From assembly GCA_018334555.1 (NCBI GenBank), contig JAGXLR010000003.1:1-50730 (forward strand): DNA of 50,730 nucleotides, written 5' to 3'. The DNA is from Desulfobacterales bacterium (GTDB taxonomy: Bacteria; Desulfobacterota; Desulfobacteria; Desulfobacterales; Desulfosalsimonadaceae). Below are positions 20,406-29,292 of this stretch, piece after piece. A model generated the notes under the pieces. The model had not been told where the DNA came from. It ran no database searches and was given only the letters and a program-made list of their open reading frames with translations. The position numbers and the translations under genes were made by a program. Numbering within the stretch: the stretch's first letter is position 1; each line of letters begins with the position of its first letter.

Positions 20406-21659
20406 CTACCGATCCATTTTTTCCTTGAGCCGAATATAGACCGGTACGCCCAGGTTCTCCCGGAGCTTGTTCTCCGCATGACGGATCAGCTTTTCGAGTT
20501 CCTTGATTTCGTCTGAAAAGATTTCTGTAGAAACCGGCAGCCAGACTTCCAGATATTTTTTTCCTTCAGCCTGCTGCACAAAAAAACGAACCGACGGCGG
20601 GATGTTTCCAATGGTTTTTTGAAGGTTGGCATGGACGAGTTGTCCATGAACATTGACGCCATCAATATTTAATATGTCGTCAGTCCGTTCGGCATACCAT
20701 CCGATCCGTTTCCAGGAACGCCCGCAGCTGCAGGGTGCCTTATAAAATTCGGCTTTATCGCCGGTTCTGAATCGAATCAACGGAAAGGCCCGGGTGGTCA
20801 GGGTGGTTAAAACGAGTTCGCCCGGTTTTCCCTCAGGCATAGGCGCTCCCGTTTCCGGATCTACAATCTCGGCCAGGAAGTGGTCCTCGTTGACATGAAG
20901 GCCGTCGTGGATCGGACATTCAAAGGCGATGGCCGGCCCCGGCACCTCGCTTAGCCCGTAGTGCAGCCAGACCGAGACGTGGAGGGTCTCTTCAAGGAAA
21001 CGCCGGTTGGCCGGTGATATGAGGTCGCCGGCAAGGATCAGCGTGGCAAGCTCCAGGGAATTGACATTGATGTCCTGCTCTTTGATGTAGACGGCAAGCT
21101 CCATAGCCAGTGCCGGGGGGGTCACCAGGACCGAGGTTTTGTAATCCCGGAGCAGCATCACCTTTTTTTCGATAGAGAGCGGGATATTGGGAATCACGCT
21201 GGCTTCGATTAACTCCGCGCCCCGCTTGTAATCCCGGCCCCAGTTGGCCAATCCCGGTGTGAGCGTTATCTGGAGGATGTCGTGCGGTGTCACATTAGCG
21301 GCCCGTAATCCCCGGGCCAGAATCTGTTGCCAGATATTTAAATCCTGCGGCGTATACCCGCTGACAGTCGGATTGCGGGTCGTGCCCGGCGCCGTATGGA
21401 TTCGAACGATATCCCGCAGGGGTACGGCAAATAGATCATAGGGATAGTGCTGGCTCAGATGCTCCCTCTTCATGAAGGGCAGGCGGGCAATATCGCGGAT
21501 GGATTGAATCTTTGCCGGATCCACCCCCGCCTCCGAAAATCGTTTCCGGTGGAAGGGTACGTTTCGAAATGCTCGGTTGATAGTACTTTGAAGGCGCTCA
21601 AGCTGCAGCTGATTTTTCTCATCCGCAGTCATTAATTCGATATCATCGGCGTTCTTCAT
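20406..21659 (-). CDS. divergent PaaK-like adenylate-forming protein
   Basis: A 417-residue paralogue of phenylacetate-CoA ligase, encoded downstream of livF with its start inside the livF end (17-bp overlap). It aligns with the bona fide PaaK at 26876-28177 in overall layout, for example IDGVNVHGQLVHANLQ near the C-terminal hinge. However, the A3 nucleotide motif SSGTTGKPT is changed to APGTTRNPT, and the C-terminal catalytic-lysine motif (RSQGKAARV in the partner) is absent. It may therefore be catalytically altered, regulatory or inactive. The ATG at 21659 has a GGAG site; an ATG at 21671 is also possible. The longer frame running upstream is the antisense-phase shadow of livF. Confidence 0.8.
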   Translation of the reverse strand: MKNADDIELMTADEKNQLQLERLQSTINRAFRNVPFHRKRFSEAGVDPAKIQSIRDIARLPFMKREHLSQHYPYDLFAVPLRDIVRIHTAPGTTRNPTVSGYTPQDLNIWQQILARGLRAANVTPHDILQITLTPGLANWGRDYKRGAELIEASVIPNIPLSIEKKVMLLRDYKTSVLVTPPALAMELAVYIKEQDINVNSLELATLILAGDLISPANRRFLEETLHVSVWLHYGLSEVPGPAIAFECPIHDGLHVNEDHFLAEIVDPETGAPMPEGKPGELVLTTLTTRAFPLIRFRTGDKAEFYKAPCSCGRSWKRIGWYAERTDDILNIDGVNVHGQLVHANLQKTIGNIPPSVRFFVQQAEGKKYLEVWLPVSTEIFSDEIKELEKLIRHAENKLRENLGVPVYIRLKEKMDR

Positions 21660-22395
21660 AAAAGTCTCCATAATCTTTTCCGAGAAAAGCACGCTTGACA
21701 TCCTGATCCTCCAGGAGTTCCGAGGTCTTACCCTGAAGGACGACCGAGCCGGTTTCAAAGACATAGCCGCGGTCGGCGACGTTAAGTGCGGCCCGGGCAT
21801 TCTGCTCCACCAGCAGGATGGTATATCCCTCATCCCTGAGAAATTCCAGCGTTTGAAAAATTTTTTCCACGACCTGCGGGGCAAGGCCCATGGAGGGCTC
21901 ATCAAGCAATAACAGACGGGGCCTGGCCATGAGCGCTCTTCCGATGGCCAGCATTTGCTGCTCGCCACCGGATAAAGTGCCGGCGGGCTGCTTCGCCCGT
22001 TCGCTTAATATGGGAAAAAGCGTCATGACATGGGCCAGGGTATCGGCGGCAGCGCCCCCTTTTTTCTGGCGATACAGGGTATAGGCGCCCAGTTTCAGGT
22101 TGTCCATGACCGTCAACGGGGGAAAGATGAGACGCCCCTCCGGCACCAGACTGATCCCCAGTTTGACGACGCTCGGCGGGTCCATGCCTTTAAGCGGCGT
22201 GCCTTCAAACTCGATCTCCCCCTCCCAGTTTCTCAGCAGACCGCAAACGGCTGAGAGGAGTGTGCTCTTGCCCGCTCCATTGGCGCCGATCAGGGTGATG
22301 ATGCGGCCCTCTGCGACAGAGAGGCTCACCCCCTTGATGGCCATGATCCGGCCATAGTAGCAGTTTAAATTTCGTATTCGCAGCATAGCGGTCAA
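21643..22395 (-). CDS. livF: branched-chain amino acid-type ABC transporter ATPase LivF
   Basis: A 250-residue ATPase of the high-affinity branched-chain amino acid (HAAT) transporter. Walker A is GANGAGKST (about residues 37-45), the ABC signature is LSGGEQQMLAIGRALM near 140, and Walker B is LLLLDEPSMGLAP. The LivF-specific C-terminal part, VLQGKTSELLEDQDVKRAFLG, is complete. Substrates of this family include branched-chain amino acids, amides, urea and aromatic acids. It overlaps the divergent PaaK-like gene by 17 bp. Confidence 0.92.
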   Translation of the reverse strand: MTAMLRIRNLNCYYGRIMAIKGVSLSVAEGRIITLIGANGAGKSTLLSAVCGLLRNWEGEIEFEGTPLKGMDPPSVVKLGISLVPEGRLIFPPLTVMDNLKLGAYTLYRQKKGGAAADTLAHVMTLFPILSERAKQPAGTLSGGEQQMLAIGRALMARPRLLLLDEPSMGLAPQVVEKIFQTLEFLRDEGYTILLVEQNARAALNVADRGYVFETGSVVLQGKTSELLEDQDVKRAFLGKDYGDFYEERR

Positions 22396-22418
22396 ATGAC
22401 GATGCCTGTTTAACCCGT

Positions 22419-23213
22419 CTAACCGGTTGTTCCCAGATAGGCTTTGACAACCGCTTCATCCCTCTGGACCTCCCGGGGCGGGCCCTCGGCAATTTTTACC
22501 CCCTGGTCGAGCACGATGATTTTATCGGAAACCGTCATCGTAAGACTCATATCATGCTCCACCAGCAGGATGGTAACCCCCTGTTCCCGGATTTTTTTTA
22601 TCAATTCGCCGAGCTGGGTGGTCTCCACGATATTTAGGCCGGCGGCCGGTTCATCCAGCAGCAAAAGCTTCGGCCGGGCGGCAAGCGCGCGGGCCAGTTC
22701 AAGCAGCCGCTGCCAGCCAAACGGCAAATCGCTGCTTTTCTGCGCCGCATAATCCTCAAGCCCGACGAATTCGAGAAGCGCCAGGGCATTTCGGCGGGCC
22801 TGTTGCTCTTCCCGTAAAACCCATGGGAACCGAAAAATACTGCCCCACATACCACATCGGGTCCGGCTGTGCTGGCCCACGAGAATATTTTCGAGGACGC
22901 TCATGCTTTCGAAAAGCTCGACATTCTGAAAAGTTCTGGAAATTCCGCGGCGCACCAGCTCGTGGATGCAGACTTTATGGGTGGTTTCGCCCTCATAAAT
23001 CATACGGCCGGAGTTGGCCGGAAAGAGCCCCGTGATCAGATTGAAAAGCGTCGTTTTGCCCGCCCCGTTGGGTCCGATCAGGCCGGTGATGGATTCCGGC
23101 GTCAATTGGAAGCTCACCCCCCGGACGGCATGAACGCCGCCAAATGACTTGGAAACCGCTTCCAGCTCAAGGAGCGGTCGGCTACCGGTCCGGCTGTCTC
23201 TTCGATCGCTCAT
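22419..23213 (-). CDS. livG: branched-chain amino acid-type ABC transporter ATPase LivG
   Basis: A 264-residue ATPase partner of LivF. Walker A is GPNGAGKTT, and Walker B is LLLLDEPAAGLN. The typical LivG block GISRTFQNVELFESMSVLENILVGQH is present (key part RTFQN). The signature position reads DLPFGWQRLLELARAL rather than the canonical LSxGQ/E, as in many LivG proteins (LPYGxQR). The start overlaps the end of livM by 32 bp, indicating coupled translation. Confidence 0.92.
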   Translation of the reverse strand: MSDRRDSRTGSRPLLELEAVSKSFGGVHAVRGVSFQLTPESITGLIGPNGAGKTTLFNLITGLFPANSGRMIYEGETTHKVCIHELVRRGISRTFQNVELFESMSVLENILVGQHSRTRCGMWGSIFRFPWVLREEQQARRNALALLEFVGLEDYAAQKSSDLPFGWQRLLELARALAARPKLLLLDEPAAGLNIVETTQLGELIKKIREQGVTILLVEHDMSLTMTVSDKIIVLDQGVKIAEGPPREVQRDEAVVKAYLGTTG

Positions 23214-24141
23214 AAATATCCATTAATCCGCGCGTCAGACCTTGAGGCAGAAAAATCATCACGCTCATCAGGATCAACCCGTAAACCACCATTTCGAATT
23301 CTGAAAACGAATGGAGCCATTCAGGAAGCAATGTCAACAGGGAGGCGCCGAGCAAAGCCCCCCATATACTGGCCATGCCGCCGATAACGACCATTGTAAC
23401 GATGCGGATGGACGTGATAAAGTCAAAGGTCCCCGGACTGATGAAATAGACCAAGTGGGCATAAAGAAAACCGGCCAGGGCGCTGAAGGCGGCGCTTAAT
23501 ACGAACACCTGAAGCTTTAGCTTGCCGGTATTGACGCCCACGGCTCTGGCCGCCTTTTCGCCGTCATGAATGGAGCGCAGCCCCCGGCCGAGCCGGGAGT
23601 CGATTATTCTTCGGCAGATGATCAGGCTCAACAGAACAATTGCCCACACCAGATAAAAATAATTCCTGCCGGATGAAAAGGAGACGGGGCCCAGCTCAAG
23701 GGGAGGGATCCCGATGAAGCCGGAGGCCCCTCCGGTAACACCGCTCCATTCACGGAACAGAATATGAACGATCATGCCGAAGCCCAGCGTTCCCATTCCC
23801 AGGTAATAACCGGAGAGCTTCAGTGTCGGTACCCCAACAATGTAAGCGATGGCCATAGCGATTAGAATCGCCGCCGGCAGAGCCAGCCAGGGAGAAATGG
23901 CATAATGCACGGTTAAAATGGCGGTGGTATAGGCGCCGATTCCATAAAACGCCGCATGGCCAAGGGAAATCTGCCCGGCATAGCCCATCAGCATATTGAG
24001 CCCGAGGGCCAGCAGGGTGTTAATGCCGATAAAGGTCAGCAGTTGCAGATGATAGGCATTACTGACCAGCATTCCCGTCAGGACAACGATAACTATAAGC
24101 GCCGCGTAGGCGATTCGGTGCCAGTTCGAACGGTTATCCAT
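23182..24141 (-). CDS. livM: branched-chain amino acid-type ABC permease LivM
   Basis: A 319-residue inner-membrane permease with about nine hydrophobic segments. The LivM hallmark GYAGQISLGHAAFYGIGAYT is near residues 53-72, and the cytoplasmic coupling loop is GLRSIHDGEKAARAVGVNTGKLKL. It lies between livH (3-bp gap) and livG (32-bp overlap). The C-terminus is short and basic. Confidence 0.92.
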   Translation of the reverse strand: MDNRSNWHRIAYAALIVIVVLTGMLVSNAYHLQLLTFIGINTLLALGLNMLMGYAGQISLGHAAFYGIGAYTTAILTVHYAISPWLALPAAILIAMAIAYIVGVPTLKLSGYYLGMGTLGFGMIVHILFREWSGVTGGASGFIGIPPLELGPVSFSSGRNYFYLVWAIVLLSLIICRRIIDSRLGRGLRSIHDGEKAARAVGVNTGKLKLQVFVLSAAFSALAGFLYAHLVYFISPGTFDFITSIRIVTMVVIGGMASIWGALLGASLLTLLPEWLHSFSEFEMVVYGLILMSVMIFLPQGLTRGLMDIYERSKRQPDR

Positions 24142-24144
24142 TTT

Positions 24145-25020
24145 CTAGAATCTTTCCACCTCCACAGAGCCAATGATGCCGCTTGGCCGGACATAGAGGA
24201 TAAACAGCAGCAGCAGAAAAGCGGTGGCATCCTTTAACCCGGAGGAAACCAGACCGACGCCCAGAGCTTCCAGGATTCCCAGCAGCAGCCCGCCTATCAC
24301 TGAGCCCCATAGACTGCCGAGTCCGCCCAGCATAGCGGCGCAGAATCCCTTCAAGCCGAGCATGGTCCCCATATCATAGCTGCTCATGGTTATCGGTGAG
24401 ATGATAACGCCTGCCACTGCGCCCATGCCAGTACTCAATCCGAATGCCAGAAGGACCATGAATTTTGAAGGAATCCCGGTTAGCCAGGCGGCCTTTTGGC
24501 TGATGGCGCAGGCCTCCATGGCCTTTCCCGTGAGAGTTTTTTTATAAAAAAGGTGGAGTCCGGCTACTGTAATAAAAAGGATGGCCACGATCCATAGGCT
24601 TTGGGCCAGCAGTTTGGCCCCCGCTATATCAAGCGGGGGGTGGCCGGAGAAAGGCGGCATGGTATGCGCGTCCTTTCCCCAGATCAGCATGCCGACGCCT
24701 TTTAAAAAGATAGACGCCCCCACGGTAATGATGATCAATACGATGGGGTTGGGGGTCCTCACGGTCCTAATGGCAAGCCGTTCAAAAAGCATCCCGATAA
24801 CGGCGACACCGGCAACGGATAGGATAAACGCCGGCAGAAGGGGCAGTTGGAATGGGCCGCTCAGGGTGACGAAACTCAACGCCCCCAGCATCACGAATTC
24901 ACCATGGGCAAAATTGATCAATTCCGTGGAATTATAAAGCATAGAGAAACCCACGGCTATGACTGCGTAGATCGCCCCGCTGGTAATACCCGAGAAGATG
25001 TACTGAAGAACCTCCTGCAT
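24145..25020 (-). CDS. livH: branched-chain amino acid-type ABC permease LivH
   Basis: A 291-residue permease forming the heterodimeric channel with LivM. The typical motifs are present: GAIYAVIAVGFSMLYNSTELINFAHGEFVMLGA in the first third (GFSMLYN, NFAHGE) and KAMEACAISQKAAWLTGI as the coupling loop. The gene starts 9 bp after livK ends. Confidence 0.92.
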   Translation of the reverse strand: MQEVLQYIFSGITSGAIYAVIAVGFSMLYNSTELINFAHGEFVMLGALSFVTLSGPFQLPLLPAFILSVAGVAVIGMLFERLAIRTVRTPNPIVLIIITVGASIFLKGVGMLIWGKDAHTMPPFSGHPPLDIAGAKLLAQSLWIVAILFITVAGLHLFYKKTLTGKAMEACAISQKAAWLTGIPSKFMVLLAFGLSTGMGAVAGVIISPITMSSYDMGTMLGLKGFCAAMLGGLGSLWGSVIGGLLLGILEALGVGLVSSGLKDATAFLLLLFILYVRPSGIIGSVEVERF

Positions 25021-25029
25021 GACGGGGGT

Positions 25030-26196
25030 CTATTTTACCAGCGTCCAGGTGCCGTTTTTGATCCGGACCATGACGAAGGCATCCGGATCCAGGCCGTTGT
25101 GATCGGCGGGGGTAAAATTGAAAACCCCGCTGACACCGACATGGCCTTTGATGTTTTCAAGATTTTTTCGGATCTGGCCACGGTCGCCGCCGGTGCCTTC
25201 AAGCGCTTTGGCCAAAAGGTTAACGGCGTCATATGCATAGCCGCCAAATCCCGAAACCGACGTATCGTACCGATTCTCATAGCCTTTGATATAGTCGGTC
25301 AAAACCCGCTTCTGAGGATCGCTTTCCGGCAGCAGATCGGCAACCAGGATTTTTCCGGTAGGCAGCAGGATATCCTCCGCGGCCTTGCCGGCCAGTTCGA
25401 TGAACTTGGGGGAGGCCACGCCATGGCTTTGATACAAGGGGATATCAATGCCTAACTGGTCTATGTTTTTGGCAACCACCGCCGGGCCGGGGTTGGTTCC
25501 CCAGCATATGATGGCATCGGGGCCTTCCTTTCGGATTTTGGTCAGCTGTGCGGTCATGTCCGAATCCTTGCCGCCGAATGTTTCCGAGCGGACCACCTGA
25601 AGCCCGAATTCCGGCGCCTGGTCAAGGAGCTGTTCTTTTCCGCTTTCCCCGAATGCATTTTCGACCGTGATAATGCCAAGGGCTTTCATTCCCTGATTCT
25701 TAATATGCTGATAAATCGAGGCGACCGCCAGTATATCGCTTTGTGCGGTTTTAAAGACCCAGGGCTTGACCGGCTCTACAATTTTATTGCCGGCGGCGCA
25801 GCTGATAAACGGGATTTCAGACTGCTGGACCCGGGGGATTACCGCCAGGGAGGTCGGCGTCCGGCTGGGGCCGATAATGGCGAGGACTCTATCCCTATTG
25901 ATAAGTTTGCTGACGCTCATTACGGCTTTTGACGGATCGCCCTCGGTATCATAGATCACCGCCTCTATCATGTGGCCGTCAATGCCGCCGTTATTGTTGA
26001 TTTGCTCGACCGCCATCTCCATGGATTTTTTTTCCGGGTCCCCCAGAAAGGATGCGGGCCCGGTGACAGAGAAGATGCCGCCGATTTTGTAATTTTTTTC
26101 CGCCGCGCCGCAAAACGCGGCGCTCGAAAAGACAAGGCACACGGCGGCAATAAAAACGGGCATCCAGTTTAATTTACATTTGGTGAGTGGGCGCAT
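25030..26196 (-). CDS. livK: ABC transporter substrate-binding protein, LivK type
   Basis: A 388-residue periplasmic solute-binding protein that delivers ligand to LivHMGF. The ATG at 26196 has AAGGAGGT seven bases upstream and gives a clean signal peptide (about residues 1-31, ending FCGAAEKN); the longer upstream frame is not credible. Mature features are KIGGIFSVTGPASFLGDPEKKSMEMAVEQINNNGGIDG, partly listed as GGIFSVTG and EQINNNGG, and the GPSRTPTS ligand-contact loop. Ligand identity cannot be read; the neighbouring paaK suggests an aromatic acid or amino acid. Confidence 0.9.
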   Translation of the reverse strand: MRPLTKCKLNWMPVFIAAVCLVFSSAAFCGAAEKNYKIGGIFSVTGPASFLGDPEKKSMEMAVEQINNNGGIDGHMIEAVIYDTEGDPSKAVMSVSKLINRDRVLAIIGPSRTPTSLAVIPRVQQSEIPFISCAAGNKIVEPVKPWVFKTAQSDILAVASIYQHIKNQGMKALGIITVENAFGESGKEQLLDQAPEFGLQVVRSETFGGKDSDMTAQLTKIRKEGPDAIICWGTNPGPAVVAKNIDQLGIDIPLYQSHGVASPKFIELAGKAAEDILLPTGKILVADLLPESDPQKRVLTDYIKGYENRYDTSVSGFGGYAYDAVNLLAKALEGTGGDRGQIRKNLENIKGHVGVSGVFNFTPADHNGLDPDAFVMVRIKNGTWTLVK

Positions 26197-26291
26197 GACA
26201 ATACCTCCTTTTTCGCGGGATTGAGGCGTAATAGCCGGCTGTCCGGGGCTCCGCAGGCTCGCCTGAGAGCCCCTTGATACCGCCTGAACGC

Positions 26292-26358
26292 GTGTCCGTC
26301 CATAAATGAGATAATTTGAGCCTGCCACAGAAATTATCAGCCGTTTATGGATGGGCGC
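26292..26358. repeat. family E palindrome between ACT gene and livK
   Basis: GTGTCCGTCCATAAATG on the left pairs with CGTTTATGGATGGGCGC on the right, with ATAATTT/AAATTAT extending the stem. The element lies in the 175-bp gap between the ACT gene and livK, within the operon, so it may influence read-through or mRNA processing. Half-sites occur at 19045, 19524 and 30577. Confidence 0.65.
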
Positions 26359-26371
26359 TAACCATCTTCAG

Positions 26372-26803
26372 CTACATGGTATATAGCTTGCTGCCGCTGA
26401 TGACGGTGATATTATGTTTTTCGAGCACTGAAATGGCCTGCTCGAGTTGGTCAAAACGAAAGATCATGATCGCTTTGTCGCCGCTTTGCTGGACGAACGC
26501 ATACATATATTCGACATTGATATTGGCCTGGGTCAGGGTGTCGAGGATATAATGCAGACCGCCCGGTCGGTCGTCGACTTCCACGGCGATCACATGGGTG
26601 ATGCGTACGGTGAAGCCGGCCGCCTTCATGGCTTCCTCGGCCTTTGCATTGTCGTCGACGATCAGCCTTAGCACCCCGAAATCCGTCGTATCAGCCAGTG
26701 ATAAGGCCCGGATGTTGACGCCGGCCTCAGCCAGTATCCCGGTTACCTCAGAGATTCGACCGGCCTTGTTTTCCAGAAAAATCGAAATTTGCTCGGCTTT
26801 CAT
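26372..26803 (-). CDS. tandem ACT-domain protein
   Basis: A 143-residue protein consisting of two ACT domains (about residues 3-70 and 72-140). ACT domains bind amino acids or related ligands at dimer interfaces. The first begins [19 protein letters not shown] and the second [20 protein letters not shown], each with the conserved glycine at the ligand loop (NKAGR, DRPGG). There is no catalytic or DNA-binding domain. The ATG at 26803 has TAAGGAGGG upstream. It lies between paaK and livK, an arrangement I recall from other anaerobes, so it probably senses the amino acid or aryl acid handled by the operon. Confidence 0.85.
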
Positions 26804-26875
26804 GGCTCCCTCCTTATTAAGGCCCACGATTGAAAGGTATGTCGTGTTTTATTCATCTGATTTTTAGCGTTTTGT

Positions 26876-28177
26876 CTAGAAGCTTCGATTATCAATCACC
26901 CGTGCGGCTTTTCCCTGGCTTCGTTCGATGGATTTGGGCTCTGCAAGTTTTACCTTGGCGGATATGCCCAGGTATTCCCTGATTTCTTTTTCGATGGTCT
27001 GGGCAAACTGTTGAAGGCCTTTTACTTCATCCGAAAAAGCCTCTTTACTGACTTCCACGAAAACGGTGAGGGTGTCAAGGTTCTCCTCCCGGTCGACAAT
27101 CAATTGGTAATGGGGCTCGACGCCTTCGATCTGCATGAGCACGCTTTCGATCTGAGATGGAAATACGTTCACCCCTCTGATGATCAGCATATCATCTGTC
27201 CGCCCGGAGATTTTACTCATACGATAATGCGTCCGCCCGCATATGCAGGGTTCCACATTGAGTGACGTGACATCCCGGGTCCGGTATCGAATCACCGGAA
27301 ATGCCTCTTTTGTAAGAGAGGTAATGACCAGTTCTCCGGTTTCTCCATACGGAAGCACCTCGCCGGTTTCGGGGTCGATGATTTCCGGTATAAAATGGTC
27401 TTCAAAGATATGGAGGCCATTCTGTGCCTCATGGCATTCGATGGCAACGCCAGGCCCAATGATTTCGCTTAATCCATAGACGTCAATGGCGGTCAGTCCG
27501 AGTTTGTTTTCAATCTCGTGGCGCATGTCTTCAGTCCAGGGCTCAGCGCCGAAAATGCCGCTTTTAAATTTTAAATCCCGAAAGGAAACGCCCTCCTCTT
27601 CTGCAGCTTCCGCCAGATGTAGCGCGTATGAGGGGGTGCACGTAAGAATAGTCGGCCCGAAGTCCCTCATGATGATGACCTGCCTTTTGGTGTTCCCGCC
27701 GGAAACCGGTATCACTGACGCGCCCAGTTTTTCCGCACCATAATGGGCGCCTAAGCCGCCAGTGAAAAGTCCGTATCCGTAAGCGTTATGGATGATATCG
27801 CCCCGGGAGGCGCCACCGGATGCCAGAGACCGGGCCATGAGCTCGGCCCATGTATTGATATCCCGGGCCGTGTATCCAACTACCGTAGGTTTGCCGGTAG
27901 TACCCGAGGATGCGTGGATGCGAACCACGTTTTCCATGGGCACCGCAAACATGCCGAACGGGTAATTATCCCGCAGGTCCTGTTTCATGGTAAAGGGCAG
28001 CCGCCTCAAATCATCCAGTGATTTCACATCTCCGGGCAGTACGCCGGCCTCATCAAATTTTTTCCGATAAAAGGGGACCGTCGCATAAACCCTTGATAAT
28101 GTGGTTTGAAGCCGTCTAAGCTGGATGGATTCAAGGGCCTCCCGTGGCATGGTTTCATATTCGATATCGAAGATCAT
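26876..28177 (-). CDS. paaK: phenylacetate-CoA ligase family
   Basis: A 433-residue ATP-dependent aryl-CoA ligase that activates phenylacetate or a related aryl acid (for example indoleacetate) to its CoA thioester. The A3 motif [14 protein letters not shown] is intact near residue 90, [14 protein letters not shown] is the central motif, [10 protein letters not shown] the A8 region, and [12 protein letters not shown] carries the C-terminal catalytic lysine. The length matches PaaK. The ATG at 28177 follows AGGAGG seven bases upstream. It is the first structural gene after the 275-nt leader and is followed by the ACT gene and livKHMGF. Confidence 0.9.
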
Positions 28178-28220: not shown

Positions 28221-28262
28221 CAAAATAAAAAAGGCTGCGGAGTTTTTTTACCCCACAGCCTT
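28221..28262 (-). terminator. intrinsic terminator T2 in paaK leader
   Basis: Read on the minus strand: AAGGCTGTGGGGT, an A-rich loop, ACTCCGCAGCCTT, then TTTTATTTTG. The stem is about 13 bp including G-U pairs. It lies 44-85 bp upstream of the paaK start, inside the leader, so it can either insulate the operon or act as an attenuator. Confidence 0.85.
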
Positions 28263-28305
28263 AAAAAATAAAACCATGGAGCCATTTGCCGTCTCCCCAT
28301 GGTTT
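28262..28305 (-). terminator. terminator-like hairpin T1 in paaK leader
   Basis: Minus strand AAACCATGGGGAG pairs with CTCCATGGTTT across an 11-nt loop and is followed by TATTTTTTAA. The left arm can alternatively pair with an upstream CTTCCCATGG at 28345-28354, giving mutually exclusive structures. Confidence 0.7.
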
Positions 28306-28324
28306 GTATGCGTGCCAAGCCCGT

Positions 28325-28381
28325 TTATATGTTTCGTCGCTGGTCCATGGGAAGACTAGTGAAAAAAGAAATAGTTCCCAT
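28325..28381 (-). CDS. possible leader peptide (18 codons) with Phe-Phe
   Basis: A short frame ATG...TAA encodes MGTISFFTSLPMDQRRNI within the paaK leader. The paired codons TTT TTC fall just before the CTTCCCATGG segment that can pair with the left arm of hairpin T1. This recalls amino acid attenuation leaders. No strong ribosome site is seen, and short frames arise by chance, so this is tentative. Confidence 0.3.
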   Translation of the reverse strand: MGTISFFTSLPMDQRRNI

Positions 28382-28459
28382 CACCAGCAAAGGAACCGCA
28401 TTGTGGATTCATATTCTAACTGTTCCCGAGTTGCACTGGAGTTTTTAAAAAATTATGGA

Positions 28460-28488
28460 TTTCTAACCAATGCCATTGGGTTTGTCAA
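28460..28488 (-). promoter_or_regulatory. sigma-70-type promoter for paaK/liv operon
   Basis: On the minus strand a consensus TTGACA (28483-28488) is followed after 17 bp by TAGAAA (28460-28465). It lies 12 bp past the stop of the enoyl-CoA hydratase gene and would give a leader of about 275 nt before paaK. Confidence 0.65.
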
Positions 28489-28500
28489 GCAAAAAATCGC

Positions 28501-29292
28501 TTATCCCTTCAAATTTCCTTTAAAATTCGGTTTGCCCTTTTCAAGAAACGCGGTCGTCCCCTCACGGGCATCTTCGCTGGCCATGCACAGCCCGAAGGCA
28601 TCGATTTCAATACTGCAGCCCGTCGCCAGATCCACATCCGCCCCTTTATTAACCGCATGCTTGGCGGCGTTTAGGGATACCTTTCCTTTTTGGGCGATAC
28701 TTTTTGCTGTCTTATTCGTTTCCTCGAGAAGGCTTGCCTGCGGGATGACTTTATTCACAACCCCAAGTCCACGAGCCTCTTCTGCAGAGATGGTCTTGCC
28801 GGTAAAAATCATCTCTTTGGCTATATTCCTGCCTACAATTCGGACCAAGCGCTGTGTCCCGCCGAATCCGGGGATGAGGCCGAGCGTGATCTCGGGAAGA
28901 CCGAATTTGGCATTTTCCGAGGCATAAATAAAATCGCAGGCAAGCGCAAGCTCGAGCCCGCCGCCCAGCGCAAATCCATTAACCGCTGCAATAACGGGTA
29001 TCGGCAGTTCCTGAAGCTTGCCCATGCAATCATGGCCCGTTTTGCTGAAATATTTGCCTTGCAGGGCGTTTAATTCAGCAAGCTCGGAAATATCGGCGCC
29101 CGCTACAAATGCCTTTTCCCCGGCGCCGGTGATGATAAGTACCCGGATACCTTCATTTTTTGAAATATCCTCGAGCAGGGGGGTTAGCTCACCAAAGACC
29201 TCCGTGTTAAGCGCATTTAAGGATTTCGGACGGTTGATAGTAATTGTGGCGATGCCTTCCGCTTCTTCAAAAATAATCGTATTGTAGGACAT
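28501..29292 (-). CDS. enoyl-CoA hydratase/crotonase family protein
   Basis: A 263-residue crotonase-fold enzyme, most likely a short-chain enoyl-CoA hydratase adding water to a 2-enoyl-CoA. The oxyanion-hole motifs FVAGADISEL and NGFALGGGLELAL are present, with the catalytic glutamates in GGGLELAL and in LPEITLGLIPGFGGTQRL. The length is typical. It is upstream of the paaK leader on the same strand, but a fresh promoter separates them. It fits butyryl/crotonyl-CoA or aryl acid beta-oxidation in an anaerobe; the substrate is not determined. Confidence 0.9.
   Translation of the reverse strand: MSYNTIIFEEAEGIATITINRPKSLNALNTEVFGELTPLLEDISKNEGIRVLIITGAGEKAFVAGADISELAELNALQGKYFSKTGHDCMGKLQELPIPVIAAVNGFALGGGLELALACDFIYASENAKFGLPEITLGLIPGFGGTQRLVRIVGRNIAKEMIFTGKTISAEEARGLGVVNKVIPQASLLEETNKTAKSIAQKGKVSLNAAKHAVNKGADVDLATGCSIEIDAFGLCMASEDAREGTTAFLEKGKPNFKGNLKG

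Follow-up and report, generated by a model that had tools for sequence, protein, structure and literature searches.

In the Phe_leader family (RF01859), which comprises the attenuators of enterobacterial pheA and pheST, a peptide with Phe codons is followed by the alternative stems 1:2, 2:3 and 3:4 and an intrinsic terminator. The leader described here, which lies before a paaK operon in a Desulfobacterales bacterium, resembles that family in its Phe-codon peptide, its alternative stems and its terminator, but it matches neither the sequence nor the covariance model of the family, stands before an aryl-CoA ligase and importer operon, and has a second covarying terminator. As in the classical trp, his and leu attenuators of Proteobacteria, the position of the ribosome on regulatory codons would select the antiterminator or the terminator; unlike those, the present attenuators occur in Desulfobacterales and their relatives. 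For amino-acid attenuator motifs, a possible origin in gamma-proteobacteria followed by only a few transfers has been suggested (PMC3766115). The rimP-leader (PMC2965389) also has tandem terminators, inverse motifs and a possible antiterminator, but it comes without a described amino-acid leader peptide and belongs to other genes and lineages. When Rfam, including its T-box and riboswitch models, was searched with the leader at gathering and permissive thresholds, there was no family match, only chance matches. The Phe_leader model gave no match above its gathering cut-off in the whole genome, and in the same search 1 of 14 control genomes exceeded the cut-off. The three best sub-threshold places in the genome were inspected and look unrelated. 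By its sequence, the leader appears to work like the enterobacterial Phe and Trp attenuators, yet it falls outside Phe_leader and every other Rfam family. We found no earlier report of these leaders in the open-access literature. Together they form a large and apparently undescribed group of attenuators for aromatic amino acids in sulfate-reducing bacteria, in which this kind of control had been considered rare.

The window is the whole stretch of 50,730 nucleotides that was analysed (contig JAGXLR010000003.1 of assembly GCA_018334555.1, positions 1 to 50,730). Between the crotonase gene (28501-29292) and paaK it holds a promoter, a short ORF and two intrinsic terminators, and all leader elements lie on the minus strand. 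The features are as follows.

28483-28488, minus strand: -35 box TTGACA of the leader promoter (sequence, and presence in homologous upstream regions)
28460-28465, minus strand: -10-like box TAGAAA, spacing 17 (sequence; 10 of 12 consensus positions)
28356-28412, minus strand: leader peptide ORF of 18 codons, MNPQCGSFAGDGNYFFFH and stop (equivalent Phe-rich ORF in relatives)
28362-28373, minus strand: regulatory codons TAT TTC TTT TTT, Tyr-Phe-Phe-Phe (sequence)
28375-28388, minus strand: segment 1, pairing with segment 2 in a putative pause or protector hairpin 1:2 (fold; moderate support, 5 counted pairs in relatives)
28345-28356, minus strand: segment 2, GTCTTCCCATGG, 5' half of the antiterminator (pairing and covariation)
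28291-28302, minus strand: segment 3, CCATGGGGAGAC, 3' half of the antiterminator and partly 5' arm of T1 (pairing and covariation)
28271-28305, minus strand: terminator T1 (segments 3:4) with a U-rich tract after it, -13.5 kcal/mol
28271-28281, minus strand: segment 4, 3' arm of T1, which can also pair with the 5' arm of T2 (folding and complementarity)
28231-28262, minus strand: terminator T2 (segments 5:6), followed by TTTTTTATTTT, -21.5 kcal/mol
28250-28281, minus strand: alternative hairpin 4:5 of 13 bp with a 5-nt loop, -14.1 kcal/mol, the proposed anti-T2 structure (function inferred)
26876-28177, minus strand: paaK, AMP-forming phenylacetate-CoA ligase family, starting at ATG 28177 as in relatives
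26372-26827, minus strand: paired-ACT-domain protein (PF19571)
20406-26328, minus strand: livK-H-M-G-F type ABC importer and second PaaK-like ligase (binding protein closest to aromatic-acid binders)

The first-pass annotation of this DNA had placed TTGACA-17-TAGAAA directly after the crotonase stop, and the sequence bears this out at 28488-28483 and 28465-28460 on the minus strand, just 3' of that stop. The promoter is conserved only upstream of the leader: an exact TTGACA occurs there in 70 of 81 homologous regions, against 3.5 expected from shuffles, and between T2 and paaK in 1 of 81. This distribution bears on the view that T1 and T2 are plain tandem terminators, or part of a small RNA gene, that end crotonase transcription while paaK has its own promoter. 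Both hairpins do look like ordinary intrinsic terminators, and there is a promoter-like site (10/12) at 28223-28194; that site, however, would start transcription about at the Shine-Dalgarno sequence, the strong, conserved promoter is located between crotonase and T1 and hardly ever downstream of T2, and neither the Phe-rich ORF nor the 2:3 covariation given below would be explained. We therefore consider this view highly improbable.

The 18-codon frame with Phe-Phe codons proposed earlier exists (MGTISFFTSLPMDQRRNI), but the frame conserved in relatives is a different one (28412-28356, minus strand, MNPQCGSFAGDGNYFFFH), which ends in the codons TAT TTC TTT TTT CAC TAG and has its Tyr-Phe-Phe-Phe codons just upstream of segment 2. 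The doubt raised in the first-pass annotation, that the order of the segments does not match the classical stall-to-antiterminate scheme, arose because the wrong frame had been chosen, and it disappears with the conserved one. The Shine-Dalgarno sequence of the leader in the window is weak. Leader peptides of the same genus include MHRHCGPFAGFGNYFFFH (L049) and MQEKCGSFAGFGDFFFFR (L052), that of Desulfatibacillum alkenivorans is MSGIFFFFFYFTRSAREMAT, and longer ones such as MRQSNEIAGFGNFFFFKKSSHGPAQ and MRFRFFYFGFFSFLGGFFFRKSIHGPAR occur in other genera, each ending at a stop codon. The DNA of segment 2 is conserved even where the stop precedes it, as in the window, which indicates that it is kept as RNA and not as peptide. 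Of the 79 leaders before paaK or livK for which an ORF was accepted, 68 have an aromatic run of at least three residues. One leader of the same genus (L003, genome G002) retains T1 and T2 with a degraded codon run (NCFLVF), possibly a decaying or altered sensor.

The three CCATGG-containing segments noted earlier are present, and the pairing of the first with the second is real, although at 12 bp (28356-28345 with 28302-28291, -20.6 kcal/mol) it is slightly longer than the 10 bp given at first. The two hairpins with T-tracts likewise correspond to T1 and T2, and the 234-nt leader of the window folds with z = -3.7. Covariation was examined in an alignment (A3) of 83 paaK/livK leaders. For the antiterminator 2:3, to which A3 was fitted, 97.2% of the cells are paired and 8 of 12 pairs are changed on both sides in some leader, with 50 such cells and 0 of 500 shuffles reaching this level, in a shuffle test that leaves the relatedness of the sequences in place; the column pair 42-178 alone appears as AU, GU, UA, GC, UG and CG. 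For T1 (3:4), to which the alignment was not fitted, 92.0% of the cells are paired and 37 are doubly changed (0 of 500 of the same shuffles). For 1:2, 65.5% are paired. The antiterminator and the intrinsic terminator T1 are mutually exclusive and both covary, and the suggestion of a conditional terminator with exclusive pairings stands; the comparison of the alternative stems across relatives, which had been proposed as a check, favours a switch.

The effect of translation was followed in a model in which the ribosome was set at each leader codon and only the RNA downstream of it was folded. In the window, for footprints of 8-13 nt, the probability of T1, P(T1), stays near 0 while the A site is at any of codons 5-14, up to Tyr14, and is 1.0 once it has reached codon 17 and up to the stop; at codons 15 (Phe15) and 16 it depends on the footprint (0 to 0.7 at codon 15). 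T1 also forms when no ribosome is present. A ribosome at the stall position leaves segment 2 free and a ribosome at the stop covers it, which is the classical stall-to-antiterminate scheme. In a set of 86 leaders of class A, P(T1) averages 0.44 in the stalled state and 0.85 at the stop; 40 of the 86 shift by more than 0.3 in the direction in which a stall lowers T1 and none in the opposite direction, and about half are without a clear switch.

On these sequence and folding data, the region is very probably a ribosome-mediated transcription attenuator of the trp/phe type, which senses charged tRNA-Phe, and perhaps tRNA-Tyr as well, and controls paaK-ACT-liv. Transcription would start at the promoter behind the crotonase gene, and the ribosome would translate MNPQCGSFAGDGNYFFFH. 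When Phe-tRNA is short, the ribosome would stall at Tyr-Phe-Phe-Phe, 2:3 would pair, T1 would not form and transcription would go on; when Phe-tRNA is ample, the ribosome would reach the stop codon and cover segment 2, and 3:4 (T1) would form and terminate. T2 would catch transcripts that escape T1. The leader peptide, the promoter, the 2:3 pairing, T1 and T2 are shown by comparison and folding, and we infer a response of the device to Phe in living cells.

The leader is widespread, and its downstream genes fit the amino acid in its peptide. A DNA search found it before paaK across the family, and a covariance model (R1) built from 19 leaders matched in 229 of 389 genomes of the order and also in further genomes of the phylum outside the order, where two inspected matches are Phe leaders before paaK. 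Named organisms that carry it include Desulfatibacillum alkenivorans DSM 16219, Desulforhabdus sp. TSK and Desulfoferrobacter suflitae. We examined 114 loci in 104 genomes. The downstream gene is paaK in 80, livK in 5 and a gene of aromatic-amino-acid biosynthesis in 28 (ADTH synthase 17, DAHP synthase of two kinds 9, pheA 1, trpE 1; gene names other than paaK and livK come from reading the translated sequences, not from a family search), and one locus ends at a contig edge; an unrelated downstream gene was found in none of the 114. Peptides before paaK contain 25.7% F, 4.7% Y and 0.4% W, and class B peptides, before ADTH or DAHP synthase, 15.1% F, 17.7% Y and 3.4% W, percentages that are somewhat inflated by an ORF picker that favoured aromatic-rich frames, which leaves the repeated, alignable motifs unaffected. 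Class C leaders are a separate, Phe-only group before another DAHP synthase. The peptide amino acid tracks the downstream gene, with Phe before paaK, Phe/Tyr/Trp before the common pathway and Trp before trpE. For example, L109, L116, L117, L127, L132, L139, L145-L147 and others have mixed Phe/Tyr/Trp codons, as in MVHNRSGRYYFYYWYFFNTGLPGVR, and such mixed leaders precede ADTH synthase/DHQ synthase II or DAHP synthase/aroB. They are apparently an undescribed attenuator class for the common aromatic pathway.

The genome of the window holds two further leaders, which serve as natural positive controls for the match between gene and amino acid. The first (L150, G000:C261:37440-37574, minus strand) is a Trp attenuator of two-terminator layout, 48 nt before trpE, whose peptide MINPYGDIAQTNNSCWWWWPQIGGSSGGCL carries WWWW, and the second (L151, G000:C105:4932-5077, minus strand) is another Phe attenuator, with the peptide MQNSLQQFRFFNCRRFFFSFRSVHPVP, before a DAHP synthase gene that adjoins the prephenate dehydratase gene. 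In the simple folding model, switching was not seen for either of these two, in which segment 2 stayed undefined.

The first-pass annotation had held a ligand-binding RNA or a protein-controlled switch to be equally possible, a judgement that these data speak against. A riboswitch that binds an aryl acid or Phe, the short ORF being fortuitous, would fit the alternative pairings and the low folding energy, but Rfam gave no match, conservation falls on the switch strands and the coding run rather than on an aptamer core, and the peptide amino acid tracks the downstream gene; this explanation is hardly credible. ACT domains often bind amino acids. A protein such as the ACT protein, binding the RNA when Phe is present, could be imagined as the switch, the more so as the paired-ACT protein is encoded beside paaK in most loci, but such control would explain neither the conserved Phe-rich frame nor why genes for trpE and DAHP synthase are preceded by an identical layout, and we consider it very unlikely. 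The link to phenylalanine that had been suggested from the operon is probable.

T2 is present in all examined leaders of every class, and in A3, which was fitted to it, its pairing 5:6 is 94.7% paired, and each of its 12 pairs is doubly changed. The 5' arm of T2 can pair with the 3' arm of T1, with a median of -15.0 kcal/mol and a value of -8 kcal/mol or better in 112 of 114 loci. We suggest tentatively, at slightly less than an even chance, a six-segment 'domino' attenuator, common to the Phe, Phe/Tyr/Trp and Trp attenuators of Desulfobacterales and relatives. In this design one stall would lead to 2:3, which frees segment 4 for 4:5 and so disarms 5:6, and without a stall 1:2, 3:4 and 5:6 would form, giving two terminators in series. 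If the tandem design works as proposed, a single stall could control two serial terminators and extend the regulatory range. The competing possibility, for which the prospects also fall just short of even, is the same attenuator with T2 as an independent second terminator and the 4:5 pairing without a role. The T1-T2 complementarity is found in every leader examined, and own arms pair better than swapped ones (-15.45 against -13.85 kcal/mol over all loci and -14.29 within class, own pairs winning in 5000 of 5000 permutations and 0 of 5000 reaching their value in each comparison), although base composition accounts for part of this signal (z -2.9 for reversed arms, -6.5 for true arms). Covariation of 4:5 is modest in A3, which was not fitted to this pairing (90.8% paired, 11 doubly changed cells, 3 of 500 shuffles with relatedness left in place). 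An uncontrolled T2 would defeat the switch. In favour of an independent T2, its stability exceeds that of the 4:5 hairpin at 110 of 114 loci. In the window with a stalled ribosome, 4:5 holds until about 10 of the 13 nt of the T2 3' arm have emerged, after which equilibrium prefers T2 (-21.5), and in full-length equilibrium folding T2 is still formed in the stalled state. Read-through of T2 therefore needs a kinetic argument, and the 4:5 coupling is the less certain for it. The chances are about equal that, in the starved state, freed segment 4 would pair with the 5' arm of T2 and delay T2 long enough for the polymerase to pass.

The controlled operon comprises paaK, the paired-ACT protein, a liv-type importer and a second PaaK-like ligase. 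PaaK of the window scores 634.8 bits over its full length against TIGR02155, below the equivalog cut-off of 646.3, and is a family member with an unproven substrate. The liv binding protein is much closer to the solved binders 3uk0 and 3ukj (E 1e-44 to 1e-43), a group that we take to bind aromatic acids, than to Leu/Ile/Val-binding proteins (E 1e-15). The ferulate-binding CouP has been modelled on the structure 3uk0 (PMC3610893). Methanogens use indolepyruvate oxidoreductase to channel aryl acids into aromatic amino acids (PMC3462420), and phenylacetate can be a source of Phe in rumen bacteria (PMC7356843). The present case resembles these routes in that phenylacetate or other aryl acids would lead to aromatic amino acids, and differs in that the link is a Phe-type attenuator on paaK-ACT-liv, known from sequence. 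It seems reasonably probable that the operon serves to take up an aryl acid and to couple it to CoA, from which indolepyruvate:ferredoxin oxidoreductase (IOR) can yield the keto acid of Phe. Control of paaK by Phe starvation suggests a biosynthetic role rather than degradation of aromatics; with Phe-tRNA as the predicted signal, it gives a probable direction, biosynthetic salvage, to an operon otherwise annotated as aromatic degradation. The genome also has prephenate dehydratase and so possesses a route to Phe besides salvage. The window's genome encodes IOR, but so do 62 of 62 genomes tested, whether or not a leader was detected in them, and its presence is therefore uninformative as a test of salvage. 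A leader before iorAB was looked for in the window's genome and was not found; the gene immediately preceding paaK resembles iorB, as read from its sequence, in Desulfofustis and some Nitrospirae. The second PaaK-like ligase (20406-21968, minus strand) lies at the end of the liv genes, and the N-terminal extension of its mechanically called ORF is probably not real. At five loci (L060, L082, L089, L107 and L108) the Phe leader stands directly before livK instead of paaK, and there the importer alone is predicted to be under Phe control.
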